Part shown: one piece after another, positions 11,884 to 59,898 of the stretch | Numbering within the stretch: the first letter of the stretch is position 1 | Layout of the letters: every line of letters starts with the position of its first letter | NCBI GenBank assembly: GCA_026874595.1 | Contig: CM049311.1 | Location: 33,933,676-33,997,675, forward strand | DNA length: 64,000 nucleotides | Direction of reading: 5' to 3' | From: Sipunculus nudus | Lineage: Eukaryota > Annelida > Sipuncula > Golfingiida > Sipunculidae | The notes under the pieces: generated by a model | Told to the model about the DNA's origin: nothing | The model's database searches: none | What the model saw: the letters and a program-made list of their open reading frames with translations, nothing else | Program-made: the position numbers and the translations under genes

Positions 11884-11935
11884 ATGGCGTGCTTCTTGAA
11901 GGTTGTGTTCTGGTACAGCATTTTCACCATTTTTG
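11884..11935 (+). CDS. Exon 1: start codon and signal peptide
   Basis: The sequence tcATGG gives a good start context. It encodes Met followed by a hydrophobic run (CFLKVVFWYSIFTIF) and ends in TTTTTG|GTAAGA, a strong donor in phase 1. The next exon starts in phase 1, so the joined residue is Val, followed by an Arg-Gly-Asp at residues 21-23 just after the predicted cleavage region. An acceptor at 12,261, also phase 1, would add seven residues and lengthen the hydrophobic core. I chose 12,282 because it makes exon 2 exactly 119 nt, as in the two paralogous modules. Any 5' untranslated exon is not visible. Confidence 0.7.
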
Positions 11936-12148
11936 GTAAGAATTATATATATATATATATATATATAAATATATATATATATATTAAAAAATAAGGGCAT
12001 ATGTATTTACTATACCACGTAGTTTCGTACAACTAGCTGTTGTACACATCAGGTATAACTTAACTAGATTAGTGCAACAAATAGTTGTACGAAACAACAT
12101 GGTAATAGAGTAGTAAATAAGGCTATCCAAAGTTGTTGATTCATATGC

Positions 12149-12200
<52 letters not shown>

Positions 12201-15200
12201 TATCTTTCGACTAGTTATTTTATTCATTCGGTCTTACGAAACATAATGTAACATTTGTAGCTCTTTTCGCGAATGTGATAGTCGGTGTACGGGGAGATGG
12301 CCAGAGATACGCGGTCGCCTTTCCGTCGCTGATCAATGGGTCACTAGAGGGCGTCGCTGAATTGTACTTTACTACTGCTGCCGTCCACACGACAGTCCGG
12401 GTTTGTTTTACACACATACACGCACGCATTCATAATATATATTTATTAATCAAGCCTCACCCCTTAGGGTTTGATGGCTAATATGGTTTTGTGAGTATAT
12501 TTCTGTATCTTTATTTTGGGGAGGGATCTTATTTAAATCAATTTAAATCACAATCATACATATTTTAAGGATATCTACGCCAGTTACACGTGGAGAAAAC
12601 TACCTTAGCCCTACAGTGGCCGTTAAGTTAGAAACGCGCTAAACGTATTCGTACCCGTAGCCGTGTCCTGACGGAATAAACGGAAACACCGTTTACGTAT
12701 TTATTAATGTTCTTTAATCCGAAGAACCAATTTCCCCGATCATGTTCATGTTACTGGAATTGTACGGATAAACGACGCACTATAACTTTGAGAAGATAAA
12801 GACGTATTTGAAAGTGTGTAACAACCTTAGTCAAGGAAACCAATTTTAAATTGTGGTATATATTTCCAAAAATTATATTATATATATATTATTATATTAG
12901 ATTATCGCCCTTCGGCCGCCGGAATAAAAGTGCTATATGATTTCGAATTCATTTGCCTGTGGTTGTTATTTTCTACAGATAAAATCAATTTCCCACAATC
13001 AAACTGTTGAGGTAACGCGGGACAGAGTAAGCAAGGTAAGTCTGGATCCCAAAGAACACCGGCTGAACAGCGACAATTTAAGAGAAAGCAAGGGAATCCT
13101 GATCGAATCCAACACCACCATCAGCGTGCAGGTTTACTACTCTGATAACGTCACTTCCGGTGGCTACCTCGCCATCCCTCTCAAGAATGGTGTCTCCACT
13201 GAATTTGTTGTTGCATCCGTTGGTCCACCTTCTCACTCACAATTCACCATTGTGGCGGCAGAGGACGCCACAGAGCTGACGATCAGGACCCAAAATCATT
13301 CAAATATAACACATATTTCTCTAGACGCTTTCGGAACGTTTACCTTTACATCAAATGGTTCAGATATCACTGGTTACTTTGTTTCATCCACCAAACCCGT
13401 GAGCCTTTACTCAGGAATCGGCTGTAGGGTGACGATGGCAACAGATCACTGCGGACGGATGATGGTAGCTTTGCCACCAATAGAATGCCTAGGAAGGAGG
13501 CATGCTTATATTCCAATGCCTATTCCAGAAAGTGCTCGGTTAAGAGTTATAGCAGCCTTTGATACCTATGTACACATATATATGAATGACACGGATAAAT
13601 ATTATCTAGATTATTTGACAAACGGAAAATATATTGACACTGAAGTTTCGGTTATTGAGTGTTCCTCTGATTGTTTGGTGGTCATGTATCGAAACTTATC
13701 TTCTTCCAATTTTAAGCCGTTTATGGTGGTTCTCACTCCTGATGAATTGTTCTTTAACCATTTAATTTGGTATACCGCACCTTCGGTGGACACTTCAAAT
13801 AACGTCACCATAATAATCCCACAAGATCATGACGTGGATGGGGTACGTCTTGATGGACAAGCAGTAAAAAGATGGATGGCCAAGGGAACTATGTACTATT
13901 ACGCAGTGGTTCCACTGGCTGTCGGCGTCCACAGTAATTATCACCTGAACCCATCACAGCGTGTCACAGCGTACACTTACAGCGCACAATTTGGAAATAC
14001 ACTACCATTTGTTCACCAGGCTGGCTATGCAGGCAAGTCGCAAAATAAGTAAACTTGAAGATATTGATTATGTAACTGTTAGTGAACAGCTACCGTTACG
14101 TTTGCGTTGAACTTATCTTATACATTGGTGATTTAGAACTAAATCAGGAGGGCGAATCTGCAAGTATAAGAATTCACAGAAAAATATAACATTCATAACA
14201 TTTAAATTAAACTATTCTAATCTCTTAATACCGTGCAGATATTTGGTAAACAGGTCATTAAACTATGACAAATAATCTCATTCAGACCCGTGTCTGCAAG
14301 AAGCAGTTTGCAACAACAGAGGAAGCTGCGTCACGTTTGATATACAGAGGTTTTCCTGTGCCTGTCATGAATTCTATTTTGGCTTACGGTGCGAAGAAGG
14401 TAACGTTATATTGCTTAAAATAGCTTTTTGATGTAAATCTTCTCACGCAACTAAGTTTGTTACATATATTTTGGTTTACACAGAAACTATGAATCCAGTT
14501 GACGTATGACAAGTAAACTCACGCCGTTGTGCTTCAGTGTTCCATCTTTTACTCGTCCATTTTACCCATAAAAAAAGATGCAAGGCCGTCGGGAATTTTG
14601 TTATTGGCAAAGGTTTTATTAAAGATAATACACTCATGAAGAAGCATACATTGTTTTTCTCGGAATACAAGAGCTATGTATCATTCCTCTCAGGACCATA
14701 CACAGAGGGACGAAGATATCCTTTGGCGTTTACCGGTGCAGGTTCACACCTCGCGCCTATTTACTGTGGCCTTCTGTTGTATCCACAGCTTATCAGACCT
14801 ACACGAGTATGGGTAAGGTTAAAAATCATCAAATTTCCTGTTAACAACTAATACGGAGACTTGATATAAATTCTTTCCTATTTTCCAATCGTCTTGCCAG
14901 AGCTGTATTATGTTATCACAACATTTGTAAACAGACGATGTTAGGGCTGGACCATCATAATGTAAATACCAAATGATCAGCAGCCGTTTTCCCCGTCATC
15001 TTGGATTAAACGATCGCATGAACACTCGGGCGATGGTGTAATTGATTTCCTGCATTGTCCATGATGGTAGTAGATACCTAAAGTACAACTCTATACAAAA
15101 TAGTAACTATTTTCTTTTTCAGATAAAGACAGCAAAAAAGCAGCTTGCCTTCATCCTGAGCCGTGAACTAACTCATAGCTTTGACAGTTCCTACAACCCC

Positions 15201-18200
15201 GTATGTAGCAGCTGGAACAGTAATGTGTTTGGCAGATTGGGTGTAATCGTTGAGTCGTCAGTCCCCATAACTGTTTTCGGGGTATTTGCGCACAGTCAAG
15301 GAACCGACCGATTTCCAGTGAGACCGATGACAGCGAGTGATACGGAATTTATCGTGGCATCTCACAGCCCAGCACGTGGTTACGATTCTTTGCTCGTATT
15401 TTTTGCCACTAGACCAAACACGTTTGTTACCCTTCATGTCAATTACGACTGGCATTTTGATTTAAACATTTACGAGGCAAGCTTAATCAAAGATCGGAAT
15501 ATAGATCTTACAGGGTCTTATATCACTTCCAATTACCCGATCGGCGTATACTCCGGGCATGAATGTCTGTATCTCCCTCAAAATGCCAGTTATTGTGATT
15601 ATGCAGTCATGTCCGTACCTCCTGTTGAGTCACTGGGTAAAGAGTTCATAGTTCCTCCGATAGGTGGCAACAGTGACGATGAGGGATCACTTGTACGGAT
15701 CATAGCTACACATGACAATACATCAGTGAGAATATCTGATGATTCATTGGCTGATTACACAATAAACAGAAGATCATACATCGATTATTCTTCGGAAATT
15801 GGAAATGCAACGTATCCATTGTCTTGTTCCAAAGACTGCTTAGTTGTTCAGTACATGAGACAGTTTAATGGAAGATTCATGATGGAAGTCGTACCACGTA
15901 AACGATATGGGCCCTGGTTTCACGTTGTGAGTGATTATAGGTTACATGTAAGCGTTATTTTGCCAAGTAATGCAACTGAAGGAATGATCACTGGATTAGA
16001 CTATGGTGTTAATTGGATTCAAGTGAAGGACACTGGTTTCTCCGCGGCAAACTTGTCTGTCAATTATAAAACCAACATTCATCACAGAGATCCTGCGGCA
16101 AGCATATCTGTATATTTCACTGGTGCTTATGTAAATTATGGATCCTTTTTTTATGGAGCACAGGGATATCCAGTAGGTGAGTAGGAGAATTACCTAGCTC
16201 TACTCAGTTATCAGATTTATATGGTCAGCATGGTGCATGGTATGTTATGACAAGTGGTCTGTTAATGAATGTTCTAAAATACACATCTAAAGACACCTTT
16301 TAGCAGTAGAGAACAATAGAAATGCAATCTGGAATATATAAATGAAAGACAGCGATTGTTCCATTTAGAAAATCTGAAACTATATTAAAATGAATATGTA
16401 AAATTGAATTGATCAATCCACACAAAAACATATATAAATATGGTATCGTTATATTTTTAGCCTGGCACAGATGTTTTAAACGGATAAAGAGCGCCCAGCC
16501 CAAGCGAAATGACGTTATGTCTAGGTCCATATCGTTGCCGGTTAATACGGCTTCTATCAGGCTCAGTGAGCCATTGCCGCGAAAATGTGATGTTATAGTG
16601 CTCCGCAATGAAACTAACAATTTACTAGACCCCTGGTAAAGCCTCGGACACAACCCGCTACGGCAACCGCACACCGTAGATCACCGTTCGGTTTTTGAAA
16701 CCGCAGGAATACTTATGCGGCCGACGTGCGGGAACGGCACGGTTTTTTCCTCATTCTCACGGCCTTCGAACGGTCAAGTAAGCTAACCCTGCGGACGCCA
16801 CAAGCTAACCTTGCGGAATCCGTAAAGACCCCTTACGAGAGCCGCAGGTATGCCGTACGTCTCTCGAGTAGCCGAGTAGGCGTTTAAAATCGCACGGTTA
16901 TCCTACGACAGCCGTACGTCTACTGTACGGCGACCCTACGGAGCCCGTAGGTGGCTGCCTGACGCACGGCCGCCGCATCAACTTAAGCGCTTGCGGCCTT
17001 CAAAAAACGCACGGTTGCCGTGCGTCTACCGCACGTTATAGCCCAAAACACTCACCGTACGGCGACCGTATCCCGGTTGTGACCGAGGCTTAAGGAGGCG
17101 TCGGCGGGACTCCATTCCTGTGAGAAAAGAGAGTCACTCCACACGGTTCACTCAGATAATAAGCGTGATCGTTATGAACATGAGTGTTGGTATTACCTTC
17201 TTTACTGGCCTCGGGCAGATGCACTGGTTTCACTCCACACAAAGGCAATACCAAGCACGCCGGTTATTAATATGTAAATATTGTTTACGATGTTACCTTC
17301 ATACCTGAACACTTTCAACTCTGTTGCAGAGATAGGAAATTTATGCCTTAACAACTCCTGCCAGAACGGAGCCACCTGTTTCCTTGACCCTTCAACAGGT
17401 TGTATCTGTTGGTGCCCTCCCGGGTACGGAGGTTCCTTCTGTGAAGCAGGTGATTGCTTGAAAAATCACACGAGCAGAATCCATACATATTCAAATACAA
17501 AAATAATAGAATTGGTTAGTATTTAGTATATCTTTTTCCTTCCGGTGTAAAAAATCTACATTAAAATAACCTTCTTTTACTTTTAACAAAATGAAGACAC
17601 GGTCTCCCTACTTTTGTCACCACACGTGTCAACACTTACGCACATACACGCACACGCGTGACATATGAAGGGTTTGAGAAGATGTATATCGCGTATTTTT
17701 ATTCGAAGGTCCTGTCAGTGTTGGGGGACAGATGTATGCTATCGCATATATGAACATACGGTGTCAAACATGCAGTCGTGTTATAGGGTTCACAGTCTCT
17801 GCAAAATCAAACATGGCGGTAGTACAGGTAAACATGAGTTGATTTGTCAAATTCAAAGACGCACCTGAATTCTCCCTGTAGTACCATTATAATTATCTAC
17901 GATAAATATTATAGATCGATTTGAACAATGTAAGATATAGATTTAAACATGTAACAGAATCCACAAACGCTCTTCAGGCATGTTGTAAACTGCAGTCCTC
18001 CCAGGTCTCCTGAGTTACACCACCATGGTCACCACAGAGCAAAGAATTGTAGCCAGACTAGTAAGGGCGTGGTTTAGCCTTGTGGCCTAATAACACAGAG
18101 AACCCCGCTTTTTTCCAGATCCTTGGTCTTGTGCCAGAACCGGTGAAATCAAACAAACGAGAGTGGGTGTCGCATGTTTAAAATTCGAAGTTTGTTGCCC

Positions 18201-21200
18201 AAAGCGATAGCACGTTCTCATGTGTCTGATTGCAATTGCTTTGCTCTGTGGTGGTGTAACCCAAAGAACCTTGCTATAGAAAGCAGCGGTTATAAGCAAA
18301 AGGAGAAATGGAACCACTGCAGTGTATAACAGCTGCGTGAGGGGATTCCAGATTGTTTTAATTTTCAGACCAAGTCGAAATATGAACAAACAACCAATTA
18401 CTTGGATGGATCTGCTGGGTCAATAATATATTTACCTGGCTTTAGATACTGGACTACAAAAGGTAATAAAACAATCACCAAAGAAACCAAAGGAATAATA
18501 GTTGAAGCCAGCCATCGGGTGAATTTACACGCTTTCTTTTCAACATTTAGAGACTGGACTGGGTTCCTTTCTCGACCTTTAAGTAATGTTTCTGTGGAGT
18601 ATTTGATAGCTTCATATCCGCCACAGCGTGGAATGTCAAGCAGATTTGTAATAACCGTGACGGAACTGGAAACCACAGTTAACATTTCCATTCGGTGGCC
18701 TGACGGTACGTTTGTGCGGTATCCGTCTGTACTCTTGGACAGGTATGACACGCTAACCTATCAGTCATTTGACCACGACTTGACCGGCTCGTTCGTGACG
18801 TCAGATAAACCGGTCGGTGTTATATCGGGGCATGAGTGCGCTTTCATACCAGAAAATTCCTCCAGTTGCGGATACCTGGCAATCAACCTGCCTGACGTCT
18901 TTACAATGGGAAATGTTTTCGTAGTTCCTCCGATAGCTGGTCCAAGGATTGGTGCGGGTTACAAGCTCCGTATTATAGCCGCCCACAATGAAACAAGTGT
19001 CAGAGTTTTAGGATACAAAGATGAGACAATTCACCGGGGAGAATTCCTGGAGAAGATGGTTATTAACCGAAATGAAAGTCTCCATGTTATATGCTCCAAA
19101 GGGTGTCTCGTGGTACAGTATGCGGAAGCTTTTAGAATTAATACCACCGCATTCATGATGGAAGTAGTACCGGTTGAGCAGTACGAACGCAAATACACGT
19201 GGGTGAGCTATCCCGTCATGCATCATTGGCTCTCTATTATCGCCCCTACTGATGACGTAGATAAAGTACGCCTTAACGGCACAGGTCTTTCCGGGGTGAG
19301 ATGGCAGCGCGTTCCAGGTACAAATTACAGCACTGGAACGTTGTACGTTGGGACAGGCGAGTTTCAGACAGAGCTGACAGTAGATACCGTTGTGAAGATA
19401 GGAGCATTCGCCTTCGGATATTACGATTTTTACGAACCTATGACATATGGCCAATCCTTGGGCGCTGCAGGTAAATGCCTTTACCAGATAATATTTGTGT
19501 TCATAAATGATATGGTACGTGTTATCCAAACCAGCAAGTGTTAGCCCTTTTATATTCCAAAAAGTGAAATACTATTTTACTGAAATGGATGAAATCTTTA
19601 TGAAAAATTATCATTTTTTTATAATGTTTGCACCTACACTTGAATCCAGCATTACGTCCCTAAATTATGTATTAAATTATTTTCTAAGAAATCATTTTTC
19701 GATGGGCAAAATTTAATTGGGACAAAAGCGTATATATAATCGTATTCTTGTTTTCAAACGTTCTTTAGACTTCAACTTCAATATCAACATGGAAGTTGTA
19801 ATAATGATATTTCAATGTATTCTCCCCATGTCTGCAGTCAAATCGACAGGATGTATATTCAAAATAATTTTGACAGGACAATCCATTATTATCCTCTGCT
19901 CCAGATACCCCACGCCGATGTTTCGTCAATCCGTGCATGAACGGTGGAACTTGCGTTCCTGTTTCAGGCTTGGTGTACAACTGCTCCTGTCCACCACTAT
20001 TTTCCGGTCGACACTGTGAAAATGGTAAAACCCTGAACCGTGATTAGATAAATTTTCATTACGCTATAGACTTACATAATTAATTCTACTAAGTGCAACG
20101 TAAATTCCATTGGCATTTATTTTCTGTAAAGATAGAATAATCTCAAAATAATATAAGTGTGACAGTCTACGAAATCAGGTCACCGATACATGCATCGTAA
20201 TTCACTACAGCTGTAGTGGATGAGATATATACTTGCTTTATAAACAAGTCTTGGCAATTAAGTTTACCTTACCTTAACCGCTCGAGACGAGCATTTTGTA
20301 TTTGGGTATAAGTGTATGAAGTCGTTAAACCTTTAAACCTTTAAGATAACCGTCAACAATTTATGAAAATTAAAATAAAAAAAAACATATATGTAAGAGA
20401 AAGGGTGAAGAATCACCTTTATAGGTGGCTTTAGATGCTATATGTATAAAGCCTCCCTAGGAATTTATATATCAATAAATATCATGAATTTATATATCCA
20501 TCTTTGTGTAAACTTTTGATGGTGGGCCTACTTAACCCCCCCCCCCCGAGCAAAACCATAGATTTCAATAGTTTTCCAATTTTTCTCTTTCTTCTGTCTA
20601 GACACTTCTAGTTTACACACATTTTAGTTTATATATATATTAAAATGTATATTTATTATTGTAAGGATTCCTTTTTTATAATTATCTTTTGTATATGATT
20701 TTAATAAATTTATATATTTTCTTCTTTTCATGCATTCTTTCACAACAAGCAGTCAAGACATATACCATTGCAGGTAACACTTTTAATGCGTATATATAGC
20801 AAATAAATTATCTTATCTTATCTTTAATAGACCTAAAGACCGTCTCGGTAGAGTCTACGGGTACTCCGTTTGAAGGTAAACAAAAGATGTTTACCTGTTC
20901 TTTCAATGAGGACGGCCCCGTGGTGCAGCAGACGACCTTCCGCTGGTATCATAAAGGTGTCCTACTGACCGATATGGGAGAAGGCGGAAGGTTTGCCATC
21001 AACCAGGGTCAGTGCAGGGGTCAGGTCTGTTCTAACATGACAATCAAACAACTTCGGTGGGATGACACAGGTAACAATATTTTTTATTCCGATAACATAC
21101 ATTACGCATTTGGTAACATCAGCATTGCCAGTCTCAACCTAACACATAAATAACCCAATATAGAATCCACATGACACATACGCAACTCATGATATATCGA

Positions 21201-22484
21201 CAAGAAACAGAAATAAGTATGAATGCCATCCTAAAATCCTAATTTTTCTTCTTTCTTGTCATCGACCATAAAATTCTGCATGTTATTCTTTAATTTTGCC
21301 AATATTGCTCTATTTTCAAATCTGCATTTACTTTTAATATAAATGAATCTTGATTAGGTAATATCTCATTACATTTCATACGGTAAATATATATTGGCTA
21401 AGAAAATGATGGTTTTCTCCACAAACATATCTTTCTTATTAAATTTTCCAAATATAATTTTTATGAAAGAAAATGTGTTTCTCTGCTGCGTTGTCTTATT
21501 CAACCGTGTTTTTTAGATCCTAAAGAATAACAAATATAATGGCGATTAAACTTTAGGTGTTGAACAGATTTTGTAACAGTTTGAGACGTGGCATTATTGA
21601 AAACTAAAAAAATTGAGTTCCTAAGAATGGGATATTATCGGTTATCTGAAAGTGTAGTGCCATTATCTGCAGGTCTGTTTGTTTAGTAAATTACGTCTAG
21701 AATGTATTCATGAAAAAACATCTCATGAAAAAATACCAACTCGCACTTTTTTTTCGTTGTTGATTTTGACATCCAAAGTAAGTACACATTAATATTTTAG
21801 AACTTGAAACGCATATATGTAAATAGCCGAGAACCATATGACTTCGCGTCAGGTGTTGGGAGTAATCGAGAACTCGCATAATGACTTTTCTCTCATGGGA
21901 CATTTCATAGGATGCGGTTGTCGTTAAGGGTTATGAATATAGTCCTTAAGGTAGAGTTCTAAGGAATCACTATATATTATGAGTACATTTTCTTTAATTA
22001 CAGGTCTCCATGAAAGCAAAAGAGTTTTTAACCAGAATGACTTGTTCAAATTAAGAGTTCACATTTCCGTGTATAGTACAATCTTATTGAATTCCTGCCG
22101 CTGCACTGACTGATATTCTCCACATAAAATAATTCTTTTCAATCTATAGGACTATTTTTCCTTTTTCCTTTTTTTATTCAAGGGTCTGTATCTTGCGAAG
22201 CAGTTACAAACGGCCGAACACGCAGGAGCACCATGAACTTGACCGTAACAGCTAAACCAGTGATCCAAGTATCACCAAACTCCCAAACTGTTGACAAAGG
22301 AAAGCATGCCAGCTTCCTATGCAATGCTTCACTACCGGTTAAACAAAAAATTGGCGGATTGTCCAACGTCACAGTAATATGGATGTCAGGCAGTAGGGAA
22401 CTGGTTAACCAATCAGGTTTGAGGATGGATTTATGTTTTATTCGTACTTTTTTTAAAAACCCGCGAATATTTTTTTAAAGAATA

Positions 22485-22526
<42 letters not shown>

Positions 22527-31500: not shown

Positions 31501-34500
31501 ATGCAAGTTAAATCTTCAAATGTAAGCCAGGAGCTGAGCGACATCTGTTTCCCTCTCCCTGGGTCTCAGGTTCCTGATTGGGTGAAAGCTGGCGGTATCG
31601 TACGAGTAAATCTGATCAAAGAGATAGCAGGTATTTAGACGTACAATACATTGTGTCAATGGTCAGGAGATACCATAGTAGATTCATTTATTTTTTACGT
31701 AAGAAGAAGATAAGATTATGATTATCAGTACAATAAAAAGTACAACTTAAAATACAAAGAAACTGATAAAGAAACTATACATCCGATAATTGCGATAAAG
31801 GTAAGCACAATATGATTAATATACTGAACGCAAAAATTAAAAGAATACGTTCTCAGACGAGCTTCCTTGTGAAATAACAATGCTACAATCATATTGATTT
31901 ATTCGCTGATCTTTTTCTTGTCCGTTCTTTTAACAAAACGCAAATCTTGATGGGGATCATAAAAAATTATGATCAGAGTAAAACATTTTTATTTATCAGG
32001 GGATTTTTTATAGCTTCAATGCTCCTTTATATCAGGTTTTCACGAAATAAAATGTAATTAATGTCTCACACATATATTTCCTGCAGAGAATTCTGGGAGC
32101 AGCAAAGTTTCTGTAGCCAGCAACATGTACAGGACGGCAAACACAGTATTCCCATTGGACGTGTATGCTAATTCATTATTTTTCCTTAACTGTTATTTGA
32201 TCAAAATGTGTACCAATACTTTTGGAGCATATACCTGTAATGAATGCTCCAAGTATGACGTCTGAAAATATAATGTTAAACCAGAAAACTGCATTCTATT
32301 GAACGCAAGCCAAATGATATCTAGTAATGCCATGAATTGTACATGGTCAGCGTACCCATACATTTAAATTATAGTGGGGACACAAGTTTTGTTTCATGCA
32401 CAGTTTGAGGGATCATTGGATATTTTGCATGATCTCCCTGTCAGAGGGGGAGGGGGCGAGTCCCGTCAGCTTTCTGCACATATTCTGCCCATATTGCCAG
32501 GTTCATTCGTGCATAACTGATATGTGACTATTCCTTGATGTCTTTCCTGGATCCGGATGATGTACCGGACTCACACCAAAATCTAATTGATTCTTTATTG
32601 GCCCATTTCCAAAATGTCTTGAAAATGTCATGAGATTCCGATGATGATTGCATGAGTTTTGTTGTGAACAAACACACAAACAAACACACCCTCACACACC
32701 GACGAGGATGAAGGTATACCCTGCTATCCAAGGCAATGAGTAATTTCTTCCTGGAAAAGCTCTTTTATTGGTTCTAAATTTACTTTGAACCTCAGTGGTT
32801 GTTTTTCATTATCCGTGCCTCGCACTTAGAGATAGTGATATACATGCTTTCACAATGCAAGTAATGGCAGCATTAGTATGTAAGGTTTGGAATATAAGTA
32901 TGTTTTATTACGATTCTCACATGTATAATAACCTCTCTTACTCATGCATTACTTTGCCTACAAAGGATACTTAATAATTTCCAATATATTACAGCGTATA
33001 CCCGGGAGTAACCATATCTGGAGTGAGGCCTGTAATGTCGGTGTCATTCGCGGAGCTAAATTTCTCGTCAGAGTTCGAAACTCCTCTGCTCCTATCGTTT
33101 TATGATACCAGTTCCCAGGTAGATTATGTTTTGCGTACTGGCCTAAAATAATATAAAAGTTTTAACTTCCTTAAAATAGTTTATAATTTAGTTCAATGGT
33201 GAACATTTTTTTTTGCAATTTTTGTTAATTGTAACATCGTCAGAAAGACAATTTCCAAGAAAACCAAAATATAAAAAAATGCTTCTATATCAATAAAGAG
33301 ATTTTTATTTTGTTACCTGAAAAGACGATTTTTTATTATATTCACAAGGACATTCAGACTCGTTCAAGAACTACATCTTGTGGCTTTTGGCAAGCTGATT
33401 TCAATGAGTAAGTGAAATTTTTAAGTATTATTTTTAATTTGCTCCTCGACACGCGAGTTGCGTTTACAAAAACATGCAATTCATAAATAGCCGCATGATG
33501 GCAGAGTTCCTCAGCAGAACTATGTATCTTAAGTTTCATTCATTTAATGCAACCATTCAAATATATCACCTGTATCATTTTTATTTAAAAATCAAAAGGT
33601 TTTAAGCTTGTTATATAGTTTGTATGAGTTGGTTTGTTTAGAGATACCCGGGAATAATAAATGAAGTAAAACAATGTTAACAAAAAGACAGTTTTATCTG
33701 AGTTGGAGTTATAACCGGTATATTATATTATATTATATTATATTATATCTACATTATTCTTCAGGTCCGGTGCGTGGTCAGACTACGGCTGCAGTAGACT
33801 AATAAAAGACAGATACATAGAATGTCGTTGTAATCATACAACTAACTTTGCAATTCTTATAGAACCAGACTCGGGGCTGGTAAGTTGCATTATATAAAGT
33901 CATCGTAAAATATACTTGTATTCAAGGCTTACTCTCAATGAATAGATTTATAGTAATGCTTAAGTAGTGAAAATGAGTTTGGTGTTTACACAGAACACCG
34001 ACGTTTTCAAGCGATTGTTGTGTGGTACAGTGGGTGGTTCTGTAACAATATAAATGTTTTAAACCAAAAACGGACTTTCGTATTTGTTTTTATTTTATTG
34101 AAACGGGCTTAAATCTTAATGGTTGAAGTCGAAATCTCTAATTTTCGAACTTATAAGTCAGTTTATTGAAACCCTCCCTGTTATCATTGAAAGAGTAACA
34201 TATTGTTGCTATCACTTCCATAAGAATAACTATGCTAAGGTAACATCTAAATACGTTAACGACAGTTAACCCCTCCAATAAATACGGTATAACATAAGAA
34301 ACATTATGTTCACATTTGTATCTTGTTTTAAAAATCAAACATCTAAACCATTGCTTCCCCAGTTGTGCGTATGACATATTTAATAGAGAGCAACCCACAC
34401 TTTCAGACAAATCATGCCTTGAACTTGGTGAGTCTTGTTGGACTGACTTTGTCCGTCGTTGGGCTCGGTATAACCATTCTGATTCACCTGCTCCTATGGA

Positions 34501-35725
34501 AGTGAGTTTAGGGAATCTAATGCTTTGCTACATCCGGAAAATGCCACTGTAGATCATATAAGATGTGAATTGCGTGAGAAAAAAACCTAAGGGTGTACTA
34601 TGTGAGCAGATTAACTGGGTCAGCTGTTTGACATGTAAACTCGTACTACATCGTACTAATACGTTTTTCCCTTATACTTTCGTTGTTTTAAGGTCATACA
34701 TTCCCACTACAGGTGAACCATTGAATAAAAATTCATTCTTATTTGTGGAATATTTAATTTAGATAGTATATGAAGCTTATTTAAATTTTCAGCTTAAAGT
34801 TCAAAATGGTAAAACCTACCTTCAGTATCAAATTACATGTACGTCATGTGTAATGATCAGCACTTATTTCAGGAACCTCGGCTCCCACGCGGCAGTGGTT
34901 CTGTTGAATTTATGTTTGTCGCTATTGACTGCAAATTTACTATTCATGTTTGGCGTCCGGCAGGTTACACCTCGGGTAAGGAATCAGTTTATTATGTGCA
35001 ATTATGCAATGGACAAAAAGATGGAGTATAATTTACATATGCATTTGTTATTTTATCCATATCTCTAATGAATCAGTGCTTTATCAAACTGAGGGTGCAT
35101 GTAAGAACGCTATATTTTTAGGACTAGGGTATTATTATTTGGCTAATCTTTGGGGCTTTCGTGATGCATCCGGGCCATTAAGATTGTTGATGGCTCTGAC
35201 AGGGATAATCTTCAGAAACAATTTAGTTCTTCCTTCCAAATACTTGGTATACAGTGCCTTAAAGAAATAAGAAATTTGGAACATCTGAATTATTCTATTC
35301 AAATTAATTCAGTTAAAACTTGTCACAATTATACAGGCTTAAGGATAATAATAATAATAATGATAATAATTATTATTATTATTATTATTAATATTATTAT
35401 AAGTATTATTAGTATTGTTATTGTTATTGTTATCATTATTATTATTATTACACAAAAAATCATAATAGTAATAATAATAGAAGAGTAATAATAATACTTA
35501 AAAGGTATAATAGTAACAATAATAATAATAATCATAATCATAATAATGATAATTATTATATTTATTATTATTATGTTTTTATTATAAGTATCATTTAAAT
35601 TAATATTATTATCATTATTGCTGTCATCGCCATTCTTCTTCTTCTTCTTTCTCTTATTCTTATTATTATTACTGCTACAACTACTACTACTGCTTCTACT
35701 CTACAACTACTGTTAATACATACTA

Positions 35726-35774
<49 letters not shown>

Positions 35775-38700
35775 TATAATCATAATAATAATGTTAATAT
35801 AAACATTAACAGGAATCCTTTGCATGCATACCGAGTCAAATGTAAAAATAAATATGAAAACTGACGAGACCATTTCTAATGATACCAAGTCATAGCAATC
35901 TGTACATTCAAGTTTTTTGTTTTCAGTTACATTATTCCAGATGTAGAGACATAACAGTATCGATCAGCATTTTACACATATACACAAGTAAGCAAGCAAG
36001 TTAATATGATATTTGTAAATAAATCAACAAGATTATAAATATGACACATCATTTGCACATTTCAGATTGGCTGTCAGATCATAGCGCTCGCCCTGCATCT
36101 GTTCTTTATGGCTTCGTTCTGCTTGATGCTGGCAGAGGGCGTGTACTGTTTGATCATTGTGGTCGCTGTGTTCCACGAGTGGCGACGCCGGGAGACTGTA
36201 GGGCTGGTTGCCGCGGCCTGGGGTAGCTTTGTCAATTAAACAGTTATAAAATATTCTTTGCAATATAAATACGTGCATGTAGTATTTATACCATATAAAG
36301 TATGCTTTATCAGGTTTAAACTTTAATATAAAATATATATTAACATGGAATATACCGTAATTTAGCAAATTGCCGCGTCCTTAATACAGAGCGCCACGCT
36401 CAGTGTTATACAATGATATAATCCATTAATAATTAATCATAAAGGCAGACGAGTTATGGGATGATTTATTAAAAGATTTAGCTGAAAAAAAAATAAAAAT
36501 TTTCAGGATTGGCCATTATTACCGTGTTAATCACGGTCCTTTCCACTGGAGGTCAAGGATACGGTGGCCAGCAACAGTAAGTCTCATAAAAGCCGGGTTT
36601 GTTCATTTAGTCTACAATGCACACCGTGTTGTATTATTATGCGTCAATGGATAGTTCTTATTTGTAAAGAATTCTAACATTCATGGTCTGTGTCTTTCTA
36701 ATCTAATAATAATCATATATATATATATATGAATATATATATATGAGTTATATATATATATATATATATAATATATAATACATATATATATATATAATAT
36801 ATATATATATGATACTCTATCAACAACCTCTCCTCAGGGATATAGTAAACGCTGAATTCAAACCCCGTTTCTATAACCATGAGGGAGTAACATGTTAATG
36901 ATTACAGTGCTTAATTAGACACGGCGAAATTTTCACTTTTAATGTGTTTATAACACTGACATATTGTACATCCAGATAGAAATATTCATGTTTAAAAGTA
37001 CATATAACTATATTGCACATAAATTAAAAATGAAATTCTGAATTAATCCATATACTTCTAACTTTGCAGCTGTTGGCTCCAGGCAGGCAGTAATGCTCTG
37101 TTCGGTTTCATAATACCTCTGGCTATCATAATTCTGGTAAATATTAAGACTGTAGACATTATATATTTTAGCGATAATTCAAGGGAACAATTAAAGTATA
37201 TTGTTATAACAAAATACACTGTAGTGCTTAAGGCTGAGCTTAAAATCCATACCGGAACATGAGTGAGGCTAATGTCCTAATTACGTTAATGACTGTTATC
37301 ATCACAGTGAAAACTCGAAATTACGACCACTACGGAACCTCGATAAAGTGGTTTCATTTCCTGGGTGGTCGTCTAAACGAGGTCGAATATAAAAAGCAAA
37401 AAAATGGACCGTGGAAATGTGGTATTTACATTTTGCTGACCACCAGAATGTTTAAGATTTTCTCTGCATATTTCTTTGGAGGTATTCATATGGTTTTAAT
37501 AATTCTCACTTTATTAATTGAAGGTTAACCTCATCACTTTGGTGGTTGTATTGTGCAAAGCTATGAATATTCGTGTAAACAACACGAGACGGAAGAAAGC
37601 AAGGTTTGTATCTCCTTTATTTTTTGCTAGTATGCTTTATAAGTGTGTCTTTGGCCTTATAGCTGGACATTTTATATTTCTTATTTTGTTGCTCACCACA
37701 TTGGGAAAGCAAGTGTTTGTTTTTGAAATAAGCAAAGAACAGTCTGTATAAGTATCTCACCTGTGATTCTAGTAGTAAGGAAGCAGGTAGCCAATCTATA
37801 TATGAATCTGCTTACACCTACCAGCTACATCTATGGATCTATAAACACACGTCAGCCGTTGTTAAAAGTTTTAAACAATAAGCAGTATGGACGTTTGATA
37901 GACAGACCCTTGTTTAATTTAAACAAAATTTAAATTATATTTTTGAAATTAATTACGAATAGATTCTATAAGCAGATTGAACCAGCATTCATCAGACTGC
38001 ATGTGTTATCAAACAGAATGATAACACAATATCTTATAAAACAACAGTGCACATCCCCAGTTCAGCGTTCACCAACGTTCAACTTTTTTTCAGTGTGTGT
38101 TACTTTTATCATAGATCCAAATTATAGATATATAACCAAAATGTACCAGGAAAAATAGCAAACATTGTTGTCAGGTATCGTTTAATAATATAAATGACAT
38201 TATATCTTTGAACGAAGAGATCAGCTGCATATATAATGTCAAAACTTAATCGGTGTTTGTCTTTACGTCCGTTACAAAGGTCAGTTGTATGGAACCTCAT
38301 GGTCTTGTTGCCGTTACTCGGAGTCACGTGGATCTTCGGGTTCCTGACCATCTCTGTAACCCTTAGAACGAGGCTGGTCTTCCAGTGGATTTTCAGCATA
38401 GCTAACTCTCTTCAGGTAAAACATTGGTTTGTATATACAGTAAATGTAGACATATCATTATTGAATTAAGTATGAAAAACGTCTGTTCTGTGTCCTGTTA
38501 AAACTGTGTATGTCAAATAGAAAAGTATCCTTGTCATCTAGTTTTAATTTGTCGAATTGTTTATGTTGCTCAGTACATATATCTGTTCTCCTTTTTTTCA
38601 CAGGGGGTGTTCATATTCATAACGAATTGCGTCATCAACCCCAAGGTAAGTCCGAAGGGAAACTCGCATACCTTAACCTAAGAATGTAAACCGATTGAAT

Positions 38701-40228
38701 AAGGCACTGATTGTAAAACACGCAAGAGTAAATGCGTATTTTCCAGTTCGATAGAAAATGAAATGAAAAATAAAATGAAAGACTGATGAAGGGGCAGGTC
38801 CAATATCTTTGAATGCTTAGAAGGTGATCTTGAACTGTTGGCAGTTGACCTGTATATTGCCTCTGTGATATTTTGTAACGACAGTGTATATTGAATCACT
38901 TCCCTTCCAAACTCTGCTATCCATGAATAAAAGCACAACATTCAATATAATATAACCATAAAAGGCATTAAAAGCTGCATAAAACCCTCATTCCAACTTA
39001 TTTGCTCAAAGATTAATTTATACCCAAAAAAATCACATGTAGACGTGCACCCTTCAGCATATACCTCTAAATTCAATCAAGCCAATGAAACCATTCTTCA
39101 GATGACTTGTGCATTCACATTCAAGCATCGGCCAAAAAATAATATAACCCCGAGGATGATTAGGAAGTTTTCCCAATCTAGCTTTACTATGAAACTGACC
39201 TTTTTCAGGCGAGAGAGGCTTTCCGACAGAAGATGTATTCTCTGAGTGCGTCCACCAGGGAGCGCGTGCTGTCAGACAATCAAGGGGTAAGAACGCTGGA
39301 AATCATTATAGCCTGTTCTATCAGTGGATGCCCGTTAAACTTTGACGGATATTTTCTCTATCTCTAATAATATCACACAGTTTTACACAATCTGAGATGT
39401 AAAAAAATGACTGAAATTAAGGAATTACTAAAATCTTTTGCAAGGTATGGTTTTGGTTTCATTCTAGTTAATTAGGCTTATGCCTTACTTCTCCATTCCA
39501 GCTCAGTTTTAGGAACTGATCTGTCAATTTAAGAAAAGATTTAAAAAAATTAATGAGCGGACCACTGGGGAACGGAGTTAAGTAAAGCAACTGTTGTCCA
39601 CTATAGCAAGACATTAAAAGGTCTCACATAAGCCACAAGTTAATACCTTTTCCAGTTCTTCCAGTAAAGAAATGCGTGATTCTTAAATTTACCGTTGAAA
39701 GTATTAACTCAAATATAAATATGCCAGATTGTTGACTCAACCAACGTTTGAAAGAAAAATAAAGACACTTTTGCCATTCGTAATATAGTACTTTATGATA
39801 TACATTTTTTAAGTTATGACTACTTTATCTACATATACATATACTTATTTTGGTACTCTTAGCACAACAGACACTCGCAGAGTGAGAAGTCACATGACTT
39901 GGCAGGGGACGATTCCATTGGTTCCCGCGCATTAATAATTCCTAACAAACAGGAGGAACCAGGAGCTAACGACGGGCACAGAAACGCTGGGGCCGCCCTG
40001 GAACTTACTGAGTCAAGAAGCAGCGCCCGACCACGTCACACGTGTCGATGTACGTCAGGAGCCACGGCGTTCATTTTCCTTCCAGCTCCTACCTCAAAAA
40101 CACCGGAGGAGAAAAAAACTGAACATCCGTGGAATGAAGGGATAGGTCACGTGCTTTGGGACAATAACCACGTGATTCTTGACGGGCGCTTTACACCAAG
40201 CAACTCTCGTGCAAAGGATTTTAAATAA
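11884..40228 (+). CDS. Adhesion G-protein-coupled receptor with three IgGFc-binding/EGF modules (whole gene, 32 exons)
   Basis: Exons read from splice signals and phase: 11884-11935, 12282-12400, 12979-14032, 14286-14399, 14694-14812, 15123-16176, 17330-17449, 17709-17827, 18369-19470, 19905-20024, 20831-21070, 22183-22416, 22552-22713, 23923-24029, 24451-24657, 25602-25670, 26347-26458, 31499-31630, 32087-32162, 32995-33118, 33349-33407, 33765-33879, 34407-34501, 34873-34975, 36066-36222, 36507-36576, 37070-37136, 37524-37603, 38280-38415, 38604-38645, 39209-39286, 39863-40228. The sum is 6,804 nt (2,267 aa) with no frame conflict. Order of domains: signal peptide (1-17), IgGFc1 (18-408), EGF1 (409-446), IgGFc2 (447-837), EGF2 (838-877), IgGFc3 (878-1284), EGF3 (1285-1324), Ig1 and Ig2 (1325-1536), HRM-like (1537-1572), GAIN (1573-1815), GPS (about 1818-1862), 7TM (1871-2120), tail. 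A receptor at the cell surface with an adhesive or pathogen-sensing ectodomain is inferred. Ligand and G protein are unknown. Confidence 0.85.
12004..12119. repeat. 116-bp foldback element in GPCR intron 1
   Basis: The left arm atttactataccacg...gtttcgtacaacta (12,005-12,034) is matched by the right arm tagttgtacgaaac...tagtaaat (from 12,082) with a few mismatches. (TA)n tracts flank it on both sides (11,944-11,985 and 12,156-12,198). It looks like a small MITE inserted in a TA microsatellite. Confidence 0.6.
12282..14032 (+). CDS. Exons 2-3: IgGFc-binding-type domain 1
   Basis: Exon 2 (12282-12400, 119 nt) carries GQRYAVAF and a strand pattern ending TTVRV. It joins in phase 0 to exon 3 (12979-14032, 1,054 nt). 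Exon 3 has the hallmarks of the FCGBP N-terminal (IgGFc_binding) family: GYFVSSTKPVSLYSG, a conserved Cys pair in GC..TDHCG, then LPPIECLGRRHAYIP. There are many N-x-S/T sites. Exon 3 ends at CAG|GCAAGT, which must be a GC-AG intron, since no nearby GT keeps phase 1. The joined codon is Asp, leading into the EGF. The closest known relatives are secreted mucin-associated FCGBP proteins; here the domain is part of a receptor. Confidence 0.85.
14286..14399 (+). CDS. Exon 4: EGF-like domain 1
   Basis: The exon is 114 nt, phase 1 at both ends, and follows ctcattcag. It reads DPCLQEAVCNNRGSC, then SCACHEFYFGLRCEE, which gives the six cysteines of an EGF-like domain. The donor is GAAG|GTAACG. Symmetric phase 1-1 EGF exons are the standard shuffling unit of animal extracellular proteins. 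Confidence 0.88.
14694..16176 (+). CDS. Exons 5-6: IgGFc-binding-type domain 2
   Basis: Exon 5 (14694-14812) follows cctctcag and is 119 nt. It reads GPYTEGRRYPLAF and ends TGG|GTAAGG in phase 0. Exon 6 (15123-16176) follows tttttcag and is 1,054 nt, the same length as exon 3. It contains DLTGSYITSNYPIGVYSG, HECLYLPQNASYC and VPPVESLGKEFIVPP, the diagnostic core of the family, and ends GTAG|GTGAGT in phase 1. The equal exon lengths and boundaries show that modules 1 and 2 are direct duplicates. Confidence 0.87.
16640..17090. mobile_element. 451-bp GC-rich MITE with inverted ends and TAA duplication
   Basis: The left end AGCCTCGGACACAACCCG pairs with the right end, whose reverse complement reads AGCCTCGGTCACAACCGG, and the match continues to ctacgg/atacgg. 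TAA flanks both sides (16,637-16,639 and 17,091-17,093), as expected for PIF/Harbinger-type target duplication. The inside is packed with CCGTACG and CGCACGG motifs and is far richer in GC than its surroundings. It lies in the intron between exons 6 and 7 of the GPCR. Confidence 0.7.
17330..17449 (+). CDS. Exon 7: EGF-like domain 2
   Basis: This 120-nt, phase 1-1 exon lies after ctctgttgcag. It reads IGNLCLNNSCQNGATC, then CICWCPPGYGGSFCEAG, and the donor is GCAG|GTGATT. It has the six EGF cysteines plus one extra Cys in CICWC, an unusual spacing. No calcium-binding D/N-x-D/N-E signature is evident. Confidence 0.88.
17709..19470 (+). CDS. Exons 8-9: IgGFc-binding-type domain 3
   Basis: Exon 8 (17709-17827) follows ttcgaag, is again exactly 119 nt, and reads GPVSVGGQMYAIAY to AVVQ in phase 0. 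It is divergent, and I found it by aligning its length and its G-x-x-Y-A-x-A pattern with exons 2 and 5. Exon 9 (18369-19470) follows attttcag, is 1,102 nt (48 nt longer than exons 3 and 6), and contains DLTGSFVTSDKPVGVISG, HECAFIPENSSSC and GNVFVVPPIAG. The donor GCAG|GTAAAT is phase 1. The long exon is very secure; the small one is less so. Confidence 0.82.
19905..20024 (+). CDS. Exon 10: EGF-like domain 3
   Basis: This 120-nt, phase 1-1 exon lies between ctgctccag and ATG|GTAAAA. It reads RRCFVNPCMNGGTC, then YNCSCPPLFSGRHCENG, a complete six-cysteine EGF-like domain. It closes the third module. The next secure exon is the Ig exon at 20,831, with a possible 21-nt microexon between them. 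Confidence 0.88.
20753..20773 (+). CDS. Possible 21-nt microexon (linker)
   Basis: A T-rich tract and acaagcag precede 21 nt that end in GCAG|GTAACA. The stretch is phase 1 at both ends, so inclusion would add seven residues (VKTYTIA) between EGF3 and Ig1 without changing frame. It has no domain and could be chance. Confidence 0.35.
20831..22713 (+). CDS. Exons 11-13: two Ig-like domains
   Basis: Exon 11 (20831-21070) carries the first half of Ig1, with FTCSF, FRWYHKG and RWDDTG. Exon 12 (22183-22416) completes it (SVSCEAV) and starts Ig2 (ASFLCNAS, VTVIWMSG). Exon 13 (22552-22713) completes Ig2 with FTCIARNLAGS. All junctions are phase 1. Each domain has its intron just before the second cysteine, in the loop after the D-x-G motif, so the two domains share one interior exon. 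A (CT)n tract of about 33 nt lies directly before exon 13. Ig-like domains next to HRM and GAIN are common in adhesion GPCRs of several subfamilies. Confidence 0.82.
22487..22523. repeat. (CT)n tract before Ig exon 13
   Basis: A pure CT run 29 nt upstream of the acceptor of exon 13. It may act as a long polypyrimidine tract, and its length is likely variable. Confidence 0.9.
23923..24029 (+). CDS. Exon 14: hormone-receptor-motif-like segment
   Basis: The 107-nt exon lies between ggaaatgcag and GAAGAA|GTAAAT. It reads TAMRECRDVPQRDAEWAAP, then SYINCRDRSF. This fits the C-terminal half of the HRM/HormR domain found N-terminal to GAIN in adhesion GPCRs (R-x-C, W-x-x-P, N-C). Only the second half of the usual domain is seen, so it may be a reduced HRM. 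Phase 1 in, phase 0 out. Confidence 0.7.
24451..33879 (+). CDS. Exons 15-22: GAIN domain and GPS motif
   Basis: Exons 15-17 encode the helical subdomain A (for example NGMQPGNLVAASEALRTIAV and AESVGTMLDKRNQNAWHEI). Exons 18-22 encode the beta-rich subdomain B and the GPS: CGFWQADFNESGAWSDYGC, then ECRCNHTTNFAIL. The four GPS cysteines and the Phe-Trp are present. The residue before the expected cut is Thr, not the usual Leu, while the tethered-agonist-like start TNFAILI is kept. The end of exon 15 is ambiguous: ACG|GTCAGC (24,636) or a GC donor CAG|GCACGT (24,657) would both keep phase 0. The intron between exons 17 and 18 is 5.0 kb because a DIRS-like element lies in it. Confidence 0.8.
24780..25122. 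repeat. Tandem duplication of about 177 bp in a GPCR intron
   Basis: Copies at 24,780-24,945 and 24,957-25,122 both contain cctaactagataatttcata and end acgttatttcttctata. They differ by a few substitutions and a run of extra A. They lie between exons 15 and 16. Confidence 0.88.
26611..26865. repeat. DIRS 255-bp direct repeat, 3' copy
   Basis: It starts aattttcccggcag and ends agacattaaac. It matches 30993-31247 over 255 nt with no difference found by eye. The direct, not inverted, orientation is like that of Ngaro/PAT-type split direct repeats rather than DIRS1-type inverted repeats. Confidence 0.9.
26869..27084. repeat. Two tandem 108-bp copies at the 3' side of the DIRS element
   Basis: Units start at 26,869 and 26,977 (tatcacacataagtatg) and end atgcagttactgt. 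One or two mismatches are visible (aacatgcag versus aatatgcag). They fill the space between the YR stop codon and the 255-bp repeat. Confidence 0.9.
27084..27926 (-). CDS. DIRS tyrosine recombinase (YR)
   Basis: A 280-residue open frame. The catalytic box pattern of the phage-integrase fold is visible: Arg in FFGLLRISN, the H-x-x-R box in NTHSLRRGGATWL, Gly-Asp-Trp in MGDWKSD, and the Tyr nucleophile in VYQYIKP. It would integrate a circular DNA intermediate by strand exchange. The stop codon lies at the border of the 108-bp tandem repeat. The N-terminus may be incomplete: full DIRS recombinases usually have a longer N-terminal SAM-like part, and the sequence just upstream (27,927-28,041) has no matching long frame. 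Confidence 0.85.
   Translation of the reverse strand: MSTKNICRYAAFLARRCAISSIRQYMNIIRILHLDFGLENPLSSWEIKSVLGGIKRHKGDPPNQKAPILPSHLFKLHSYLNLQEIRDLQLWAVCLTAFFGLLRISNVTSRSLSDPGMSVLRENFSITAKGAILRVPKSKSNQFKAKVHEVTLPYIPGSPLCPVSAIVKFIQLSRVQFNESTAPLFAIGDSTGNPMGLTQVTFGIRLLKALVDIGLSSTNYNTHSLRRGGATWLMSMGIPLAMVKTMGDWKSDAVYQYIKPTNDIKFSMMKSATDRLSFNI
28042..28590 (-). CDS. DIRS RNase H segment
   Basis: The frame contains INIKELASIVLAARRWG, HTDSEIAMSIINKG and RGMDNYIADLISR, matching the Glu, Asp and final Asp regions of the RNase H domain that follows RT in DIRS elements. It overlaps the end of the RT frame in another reading frame, so a frameshift near 28,520 separates them. Confidence 0.75.
   Translation of the reverse strand: MGHSANLSYFHRCQHPSRRTFCNGDWFYVDWQADITQLSQEHINIKELASIVLAARRWGDKWLNQQIIVHTDSEIAMSIINKGASPVNVCNNLLKELCFLSLRFNFSIRCTHIRGMDNYIADLISRLHDGNNIEKFLMAIQGLYVGQNLLPPIYNFADHMTKQSLFYISSKPRDNTVTGGTG
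28389..29682 (-). pseudogene. DIRS reverse transcriptase, frameshifted
   Basis: Two overlapping frames cover the domain. Frame 29170-29682 has SALSAVPKSDGGIRLVHDFS and MAKVDLQSAYRCVPIHP. Frame 28389-29252 has LPFGARKSPEIFHRITQAV, the YLDD catalytic box in LVVYLDDFLIIG, and the thumb region FLGTVIDS. The shift is near 29,190-29,200, within the fingers/palm. The end of the second frame shows TDASTQAGG, the start of RNase H, before a second shift. This copy would not make a full polyprotein without frame changes. Confidence 0.8.
29698..30924 (-). pseudogene. DIRS gag-like ORF, broken
   Basis: The frame from 30924 to 30226 (232 aa) begins with ATG after the left repeat and encodes an acidic, Gln/Asp-rich protein with an N-terminal helix-rich region (FGKALSLGQILLLQEAV). 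A second frame (30060-29698) holds a zinc-binding cluster, CERFNGRNGCALRQCRYAHVC, of CCCH type. The 165 nt between them keeps no shared frame, so the original gag is probably interrupted. A role in RNA packaging is inferred from position and the zinc cluster. Confidence 0.6.
30993..31247. repeat. DIRS 255-bp direct repeat, 5' copy
   Basis: Same orientation and length as the copy at 26,611. On the minus strand it precedes the gag start at 30,924 and probably holds the promoter; it contains a TATA-like tataatataaa stretch. Confidence 0.9.
34407..38645 (+). CDS. Exons 23-30: seven-transmembrane region
   Basis: Exon 23 holds TM1 (HALNLVSLVGLTLSVVGLGI); exon 24 TM2 (VVLLNLCLSLLTANLLFMFG); exon 25 TM3 (FFMASFCLMLAEGVYCLIIV); exon 26 TM4 (AIITVLITVLSTG); exon 27 the HCWL of the second extracellular loop and the start of TM5; exon 28 the end of TM5 and a basic third intracellular loop; exon 29 TM6 (LLPLLGVTWIFGFL) and the start of TM7 (FQWIFSIANSLQ); exon 30 the rest of TM7 (GVFIFITNCVINPK). 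These are class B2 (adhesion) signatures. The conserved Cys pair (TM3 and loop 2) is present. Intron phases vary here (0, 1 and 2), unlike the uniformly phase 1 ectodomain. Confidence 0.9.
35346..35800. repeat. Compound trinucleotide tract (AAT/ATT, CTT, CTA)
   Basis: A 450-nt low-complexity stretch in the intron between exons 24 and 25. It gives poly-Ile frames on both strands, which are artefacts. Confidence 0.95.
39209..40228 (+). CDS. Exons 31-32: cytoplasmic tail
   Basis: Exon 31 (39209-39286) reads AREAFRQKMYSLSASTRERV, which matches helix 8 and the proximal tail of adhesion GPCRs. Exon 32 (39863-40228) encodes 121 residues, mostly polar, rich in Ser, Glu, Arg and Asn, and ends at a TAA at 40,226. 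It has no recognisable domain or C-terminal PDZ ligand (the last residues are KDFK). A polyadenylation signal candidate AATAAA lies at 40,426. Confidence 0.82.
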
Positions 40229-48289: not shown

Positions 48290-48331
<42 letters not shown>

Positions 48332-59100: not shown

Positions 59101-59501
59101 TTTGTTATGTTGCTGTTAAGCCAGGTTTCCGTCAGCGCAATTATGTCATAGTCACCTAATTCCACGGAAACATGGTCAACTTTGGATAAAAGGCTTCTTA
59201 CATTCACGTGAACCATTGACAGCGAACTCAGTGCACTGACCGTCCCAGTCGGTCCTGGATTGGGATGAATATCCCCTGCATTACACAATCTTACCCAAGA
59301 ATAATCATACAGACAATAAAAATGTACCTTGTGAACCTGTAAACTGGATACAGTGGTTATATAAGAGGTTACGTAAGCGCACAGGTTTAAGTTACTATGA
59401 ACACTATTTCTCTTGTGGGTTCGTTTGTTACCAGTTACGTTAATCTCTATTACGTGGAAAGTTGTATTCAGGTGTACAAGATACGTGAACCCACATAACA
59501 T
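56112..59501 (-). pseudogene. LINE ORF2: endonuclease and reverse transcriptase, one in-frame stop
   Basis: From the N-terminus: a 2A-like AGDIHPNPGP (59,250-59,276), the endonuclease start (SMVHVNVRSLLSKV, IIALTETWLN), an in-frame TAG at 59,007-59,009, then 964 open codons. Those hold the rest of the endonuclease (ILGDFNVDLLN, CSDHHPVRMKL), the RT domain (FISLDASNAFDRVWHEGL, PAGVPQGSILGPLLF, RLYADDASIF) and a C-terminal Cys/His segment (CSCGLAVETPEHYFLYCPLY). All catalytic motifs are present; only the stop within the endonuclease part breaks the frame. The two halves are in the same frame, so this is a point change, not an indel. Confidence 0.85.
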
Positions 59502-59898
59502 TATAATGACACCCGATAGACCCCGTGACTACTTGAAAGTTACATTGTATTTGACGAGTATTTTGTTCTCCATAAGGAATAGATACCTGAAAAGACATAA
59601 TCAAAATAATTGAAATCGAACTGAACAGTGTGTACAATAAAGATACTGAATAAGAAACAAAATGCAGTGCAAAGAATATATAAAGCTCATTTAGTGTTAT
59701 TTTCAACATGATAAGATTCATGTTTCAATAACGGACAAAACAAGCGGAAGCTGCGTGGGTCATATTTGTGCTTTCTCCAACTGATTTTATAAGTAATGCT
59801 TTGTATTTAAACAACAGTGTTTCCTGTCAATTGTAAAAAAATAGTGAAACTCAGCCATATAATATATGTCTATAATATACTTGAGGCATCAAAGTGTT

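Follow-up and report, generated by a model that had tools for sequence, protein, structure and literature searches.

Latrophilins (ADGRL) carry galactose-binding lectin and olfactomedin domains; FCGBP is a secreted mucus protein with VWD/C8/TIL repeats; in polycystin-1-like proteins, a PLAT and a polycystin domain follow the GPS. The gene described here lies in a 64,000-nucleotide stretch of the Sipunculus nudus genome (C6:33933676-33997675, the window in what follows) and can be compared with each of these. It is collinear with ADGRL3 (latrophilin) over 610 residues spanning HRM, GAIN, GPS and 7TM (E 6.9e-48). In that alignment CNHLTNFAVLM of ADGRL3 stands at CNHTTNFAILI of the window gene, which pairs the agonist TNFAVLM with TNFAILI; the cleavage site of ADGRL3 is HLT, whereas that of the window gene reads HTT. 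A lectin or olfactomedin domain is not matched by Pfam in the window protein, which has Ig, EGF and IgGFc domains instead. What it has in common with FCGBP is the IgGFc_binding domain (PF17517), present in three copies, but FCGBP is a secreted gel protein and the product of the window gene a predicted membrane receptor; VWD, C8 and TIL are not among the eight Pfam families that it matches.

The 2193-residue protein Bbelb_117090 of the amphioxus Branchiostoma belcheri comprises an N-terminal IgGFc_binding domain (PF17517), EGFs and a GPS (PF01825) in one chain. Its membrane part consists of PF01477 and PF20519 (which we take to be the PLAT and polycystin domains, respectively) in place of the 7tm_2 of the window protein, in which Pfam matches neither PLAT nor polycystin domain and 7tm_2 follows the GPS. 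Bbelb_117090 is a second case of an IgGFc_binding domain in a GPS protein, and is polycystin-like. For the GPS-7TM part, the best match is LOC123538400 of Mercenaria mercenaria (33% identity), which is listed with PF00059 (presumably a C-type lectin domain) and without IgGFc.

The earlier note on this DNA had proposed that IgGFc-binding domains are new to adhesion GPCRs. Protein database searches found no orthologue with the same architecture, and none of the 3, 6 and 19 matches at E<=1e-3 combines PF17517 with PF00002; among these matches, the amphioxus IgGFc-EGF-GPS protein comes nearest to the combination presented by the window gene. (Such a search reaches only relatives that share exact five-residue words and are of similar length, and animal matches were few; because of these limits and the uncertain coverage of animals, absence from the protein database is weak evidence.) Literature searches found no adhesion GPCR with IgGFc, and neither "IgGFc" nor "FCGBP" occurs in the text available of PMC12716839 and PMC4302439 or in the searched part of PMC13197933. 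On the other hand, the available text of a paper on sponges (PMC8242945) names IgGFc-binding among the "other domains" of a figure on pattern recognition receptors that include GPCRs. A sponge precedent is possible, since that text leaves the protein carrying the domain unnamed. A paper on limpet adhesive mucus (PMC7333891) is among those in which "IgGFc-binding protein" occurs together with mollusc terms. As far as these searches extend, the architecture of the ectodomain appears to be new; the proposal of novelty survives them, with the sponge figure as a reservation.

The gene and its exons

A splice model was assembled by hand from the sequence of the window's + strand. It consists of 33 exons (Table 1) in one open frame of 2302 codons, without internal stop or frameshift and with a single stop codon, at its end. 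Thirty-one of the introns, which range from 135 to 5040 nt, are GT-AG and one (after exon 3) is GC-AG; all phases are compatible. The start, end and domain order given by the earlier note are those of the present model, but its count of 32 exons and 2267 aa fell one exon and 35 aa short. The exon lacking there is probably exon 14, which encodes the first half of the HRM-like domain (CDREADFNGVTWPRTMRGTVAEAPCPRGQ), because its length of 105 nt accounts exactly for the 35 aa.

Table 1. Exons of the window gene, with the domain assigned to each and the nature of the assignment (positions are those of the window)
Feature	Position	Strand	Assignment
Exon 1	11884..11935	+	Contains the start codon and the larger part of a putative signal peptide, MACFLKVVFWYSIFTIF; phase 1 at its end
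Exons 2 (12261-12400), 3 (12979-14032)	12261..14032	+	IgGFc_binding unit 1; GC donor at exon 3; Pfam
Exon 4	14286..14399	+	EGF-like 1, phase 1-1; six-cysteine pattern, no Pfam match
Exons 5 (14694-14812), 6 (15123-16176)	14694..16176	+	IgGFc_binding unit 2; Pfam
Exon 7	17330..17449	+	EGF-like 2, phase 1-1; Pfam 16.5 bits (cut-off 21.5)
Exons 8 (17709-17827), 9 (18369-19470)	17709..19470	+	IgGFc_binding unit 3; Pfam
Exon 10	19905..20024	+	EGF-like 3, phase 1-1; Pfam; homologue precedes Ig in paralogue B
Exons 11 (20831-21070), 12 (22183-22416), 13 (22552-22713)	20831..22713	+	Two Ig-like domains; first without Pfam match
Exons 14 (22964-23068), 15 (23923-24029)	22964..24029	+	HRM-like domain
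Exons 16-19	24451-24636, 25602-25670, 26347-26458, 31499-31630	+	GAIN; Pfam, paralogues
Exons 20-22	32087-32162, 32995-33118, 33349-33407	+	GAIN (whole domain 24451..33407); Pfam, paralogues
Exon 23	33765..33879	+	GPS, CNHT/TNFAILIEP (predicted cleavage at the stroke) and predicted tethered agonist
Exons 24-28	34407-34501, 34873-34975, 36066-36222, 36507-36576, 37070-37136	+	7TM; Pfam, paralogues
Exons 29-32	37524-37603, 38280-38415, 38604-38645, 39209-39286	+	7TM and start of tail (exons 24-32, 34407..39286); Pfam, paralogues
Exon 33	39863..40228	+	C-terminal cytoplasmic tail and stop codon; from the splice model

An automatically generated exon chain was dropped: it missed many of the small exons and included 30281-30669, which lies within a retroelement in intron 18. 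A candidate exon at 26202 (ADIATRRPIRP...) was likewise omitted, as exons 17 and 18 join in frame without it; homologues of both these exons are present in all four of the paralogues (A, B, D and E) compared below.

The retroelement of intron 18 occupies 26611-31247 on the minus strand and contains reverse transcriptase and tyrosine-recombinase (phage-integrase-type) frames, presumably of the DIRS/Ngaro kind. The 255-nt direct repeats on either side of it show 100% identity, which implies recent insertion. Elsewhere in the window, the minus strand of 56115-60828 holds an endonuclease and reverse transcriptase frame of 964 aa, inferred to belong to a LINE-type element, and upstream of it a frame of 309 aa with weak coiled-coil-like matches only. 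Two frames at 45800-48996 on the + strand, which may belong to the gene that follows, have thrombospondin type 1 (spondin-like) matches, one of them above the TSP_1 cut-off. Rfam, at its gathering thresholds, has no match over the window.

Domain architecture of the predicted protein

Much of the domain order can be discerned ahead of splicing. When the + strand between 11.8 and 40.5 kb was translated in three frames (stops read as X) and searched with Pfam, IgGFc_binding (three stretches, in two frames), EGF (in one frame) and GPS scored above cut-off; a second EGF, Ig_3 and HRM scored below it, at positions that fit the order claimed. In the spliced protein, three stretches match IgGFc_binding (whole-protein E 3e-108); the corresponding matches of the genome profile search score 109-152 bits against a cut-off of 25.6. 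The profile of 7tm_2 is matched from position 3 to 250 of its 250 (E 4.5e-36). Directly ahead of the 7TM are GAIN (E 2.9e-7; 30.5 bits, cut-off 26.5) and GPS (E 5.6e-11; 43.2 bits, cut-off 22.5). The Pfam matches of EGF (E 1.3e-11) and of Ig_3/I-set (Ig_3 E 2.7e-9) are confined to one stretch each, the third EGF and the second Ig, respectively. HRM stays below its cut-off (E 3.5e-4; 21.3 bits against 26.2), with a residue pattern and an exon conservation that fit this domain. The N-terminus is hydrophobic, as judged by eye, and constitutes a putative signal peptide.

Of the domains listed by the earlier note, Pfam confirms IgGFc_binding three times over, the third EGF, the second Ig, GAIN, GPS and 7tm_2, the last of these in one predicted chain with IgGFc_binding; HRM is a sub-threshold match and the second EGF, before splicing, a weak one; the first two EGFs and the first Ig are recognized by their cysteine and tryptophan patterns (and the Ig also by its paralogues). 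Judged by these profiles, the architecture as a whole is far beyond chance and should be real.

Adhesion GPCRs are cleaved at an H-x-T/S consensus, at which the -1 residue is usually Leu. The GPS of the window gene presents a predicted cleavage site of this type followed by a hydrophobic tethered agonist; Thr instead of the usual Leu at -1 is a point that counts against it. Its 7TM segment keeps the Cys-Trp of ECL2, LLPLLGVTWIFG in TM6 and NSLQGVFIF in TM7, and motifs at these three places are important in the 7TM of adhesion GPCRs. By the sequence features tested, the gene product is an adhesion GPCR (class B2). The domain searches uphold the central proposal of the earlier note, namely that the ectodomain of an adhesion GPCR here bears three IgGFc_binding domains, and so does the comparison of the receptor part with its paralogues, which shows homology exon by exon.

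Relatives sharing the receptor core

The source assembly (1.43 Gb in 153 contigs) was searched for relatives. (Molluscan haemocyanin, PF14830, sought as an indication of the phylum in a search that had no positive control, gave no match and carries no weight on that point.) Matches of the Ig-HRM-GAIN part at E<=0.1 number 35 and are all on C6: the window gene accounts for 8 of them, and the remaining 27 are spread over seven further loci. In the five at C6:12.35-12.67 Mb (12.35, 12.53, 12.56, 12.62 and 12.67 Mb), both Ig parts and GAIN are matched, and GPS and 7TM matches are present in every one. The locus at 81.3 Mb matches HRM and GAIN, again with GPS and 7TM matches; that at 5.9 Mb matches only GAIN of this part and has 7TM matches without a GPS match.

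Loci A, B, D and E, which are among the seven, were compared with the window gene exon by exon over exons 10-32 (23 per locus), scoring matches at E<0.05 and splice dinucleotides in frame within 6 nt. Locus A yielded 22 of the 23 exons, with AG at 22 and GT at 22; the corresponding figures are 19, 18 and 17 for B, 19, 18 and 18 for D, and 15, 15 and 15 for E. (Shifted controls, summed, gave AG at 102 of 450 and GT at 126 of 450.) The four loci are collinear with the window gene, with splice sites mostly at the homologous place and in the homologous frame. Exon 14 is among the conserved exons (identity 53% in A, 64% in D, 51% in E and 42% in B). The more distantly related loci F (C10) and G (C4), which align over 73 and 60 codons, were excluded from this boundary test.

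Identity to the window gene is 54.0% of 531 codons for A, 49.1% of 552 for B, 50.4% of 609 for D, 51.2% of 285 for E, and 53.4% and 43.3% for F and G, values that are biased upward, being taken from matches at E<=1e-3 only, from residue 1332 on. The predicted cleavage motif is HT/TNFA(I/V)L in A, B and E, HT/TNYAVI in D (the stroke marks the site) and HLT in F and G. Third codon positions are the most diverged between the window gene and its paralogues. This excess, together with 2302 codons free of stops and frameshifts and GPS and 7TM motifs that look intact, makes it highly improbable that the window gene is a decaying or non-expressed copy, a reading to which the recent insertion into intron 18, with its identical repeats, might otherwise lend itself.

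Ahead of the core, the relatives apparently differ. IgGFc is not matched in A, B, D or E by the genome profile search. In B, at least three fn3 stretches lie on the same strand about 3-6 kb upstream of the EGF exon and are candidate parts of its gene; upstream of D, again on its own strand, EGF exons form an array; for A, the scanned 20 kb of that strand contain one EGF and no other Pfam match. Locus E, which is HRM-GAIN-GPS-7TM, has no Ig match, and a scan of the 10 kb upstream of it recognized nothing but a retroelement, with reverse transcriptase and endonuclease. The core is common to these C6 loci, and the heads apparently vary.

In the genome as a whole PF17517 has 59 matches; the 3 on C6 all come from the window gene. 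The 20 GPS matches outside the window gene are not near IgGFc (the closest pair, on C2, is about 470 kb apart), and none of the 130 7tm_2 matches listed (150 of 192 candidates were scored) is within about 3.8 Mb of it. Within the limits of this search, in which 7tm_2 was sought exon by exon and the window gene's own 7TM exons were missed, the combination of IgGFc with GPS/7TM is unique to the window gene. Many of the 7tm_2 matches listed cover the profile from end to end within one open frame, commonly about 700-900 aa long, and form tandem clusters (C17:20.25-20.45 Mb, C14, C1, C2 and others), several of the C17 copies being nearly identical in score and length. These loci represent an expanded, apparently intron-poor family of secretin/adhesion-like receptors.

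Intron 10 and the unity of the locus

The junction between the third EGF and the first Ig bears on whether head and receptor belong together. Paralogue B has an EGF exon of the exon 10 type (CEN) with an Ig exon 258 nt further on, and the junction (CEN/D) is in phase 1, as it is in the window gene; it uses a GC donor, no phase-keeping GT being present within the 60 nt looked at, which weakens the link somewhat. EGF and Ig are very probably in one gene in B, and therefore exons 10 and 11 of the window likewise.

Intron 10 itself contains features that could be construed as the end of one gene and the beginning of another: reading through the exon 10 donor reaches a stop after 7 residues; AATAAA occurs four times (20374, 20474, 20703 and 20802); and an ATG frame at 20695-20773, MILINLYIFFFSCILSQQAVKTYTIA, is hydrophobic, resembles a signal peptide and ends in a phase-1 donor (CAG/GTAACA), the sole frame of this kind found in introns 1-16. 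On this view, the gene of a secreted [IgGFc-EGF]x3 protein would end within intron 10, and a second gene, for an Ig-Ig-HRM-GAIN-7TM receptor, would begin at 20695. Such an arrangement is decidedly improbable: as a first exon, the ATG frame would require an intron of only 57 nt before the Ig exons, and comparable frames arise by chance, being present in 28 of 198 equally long noncoding stretches; exon 10 encodes an EGF and has a donor that fits; and the 258 nt between the homologous EGF and Ig exons of B, joined in the same phase, leave little room for the end of one gene and the start of another. An alternative promoter is possible; two wholly distinct genes are less likely. One locus might also, by an alternative promoter or retention of intron 10, yield a soluble IgGFc-EGF protein, a head-less receptor or both beside the full-length product. 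The same features of intron 10 speak for this, as does the resemblance of the receptor core by itself to the core common to the paralogues, but features of this sort also arise by chance, and two products, which would be compatible with a single gene, seem rather unlikely. The locus is very probably a single gene.

Construction and relatives of the IgGFc-EGF head

Each IgGFc unit is encoded by a short exon that enters in phase 1 and ends in phase 0 and a long exon that ends in phase 1, and is followed by a 1-1 EGF exon. Every module of the head has phase 1 at both its ends, and for this reason the head was probably joined to the core by exon shuffling. The three IgGFc units are 26-33% identical to one another. 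Unit 3 is 33-38% identical (167-184 bits) to seven IgGFc exons at C9:33.77-33.83 Mb and scores lower against its fellow units, with 150 bits (36%) for unit 2 and 98 bits (31%) for unit 1. Three of the C9 copies were read: in two, an in-frame stop follows the domain immediately, and the third ends in a phase-1 donor like the units of the window gene. The copies that stop directly after the IgGFc domain resemble short secreted proteins. IgGFc_binding exons form dense clusters at this place and at C10:27.35-27.40 Mb. Compared by sequence with solved structures, IgGFc unit 3 has no match at E<=1.

Proposed mode of action

The reading that we prefer, and consider probable, is that one gene specifies a class B2 adhesion GPCR with 3 x (IgGFc_binding + EGF), two Ig-like domains, an HRM-like domain, GAIN/GPS and 7TM, of which the head was probably shuffled on and which would be activated by a tethered agonist. 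Cleavage and tethered-agonist activation are described for adhesion GPCRs as a class in the available text of PMC12716839. The IgGFc-EGF head would have been added to the common core by exon shuffling. As is expected of the class, the protein would reach the cell surface, its GAIN domain would cleave itself at HT/T, and the IgGFc head would hold an extracellular partner, which might be a mucus component, a glycan, a microbe or a neighbouring cell. A pull on the N-terminal fragment, or its release, would free the tethered agonist TNFAILI, which in turn would activate a G protein. Given the GPS sequence, its counterparts in the paralogues and the 7TM motifs that are kept, cleavage followed by action of the tethered agonist would be the best-supported mechanism. 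That the receptor senses mucus, glycans or microbes, as the earlier note suggested, is plausible.

Implications

A broader reading can be offered tentatively, and with considerable doubt: the eight C6 loci may constitute a receptor repertoire in which a fixed adhesion GPCR core is furnished by phase-1 exon shuffling with exchangeable heads (IgGFc, fn3, EGF arrays), the IgGFc head being a mucus-type module that sets off G-protein signalling at mucosal surfaces or at those of microbes.

To our knowledge, what IgGFc_binding binds in animals without IgG is an open question; a literature search on this point found no paper combining its two terms. Three IgGFc domains wired to a 7TM would provide a direct assay, in that whatever triggers signalling would reveal the ligand of the domain. 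The C6 loci, alike in their core and apparently different in their heads, would be a compact case of adhesion GPCRs gaining ligands by exon shuffling.
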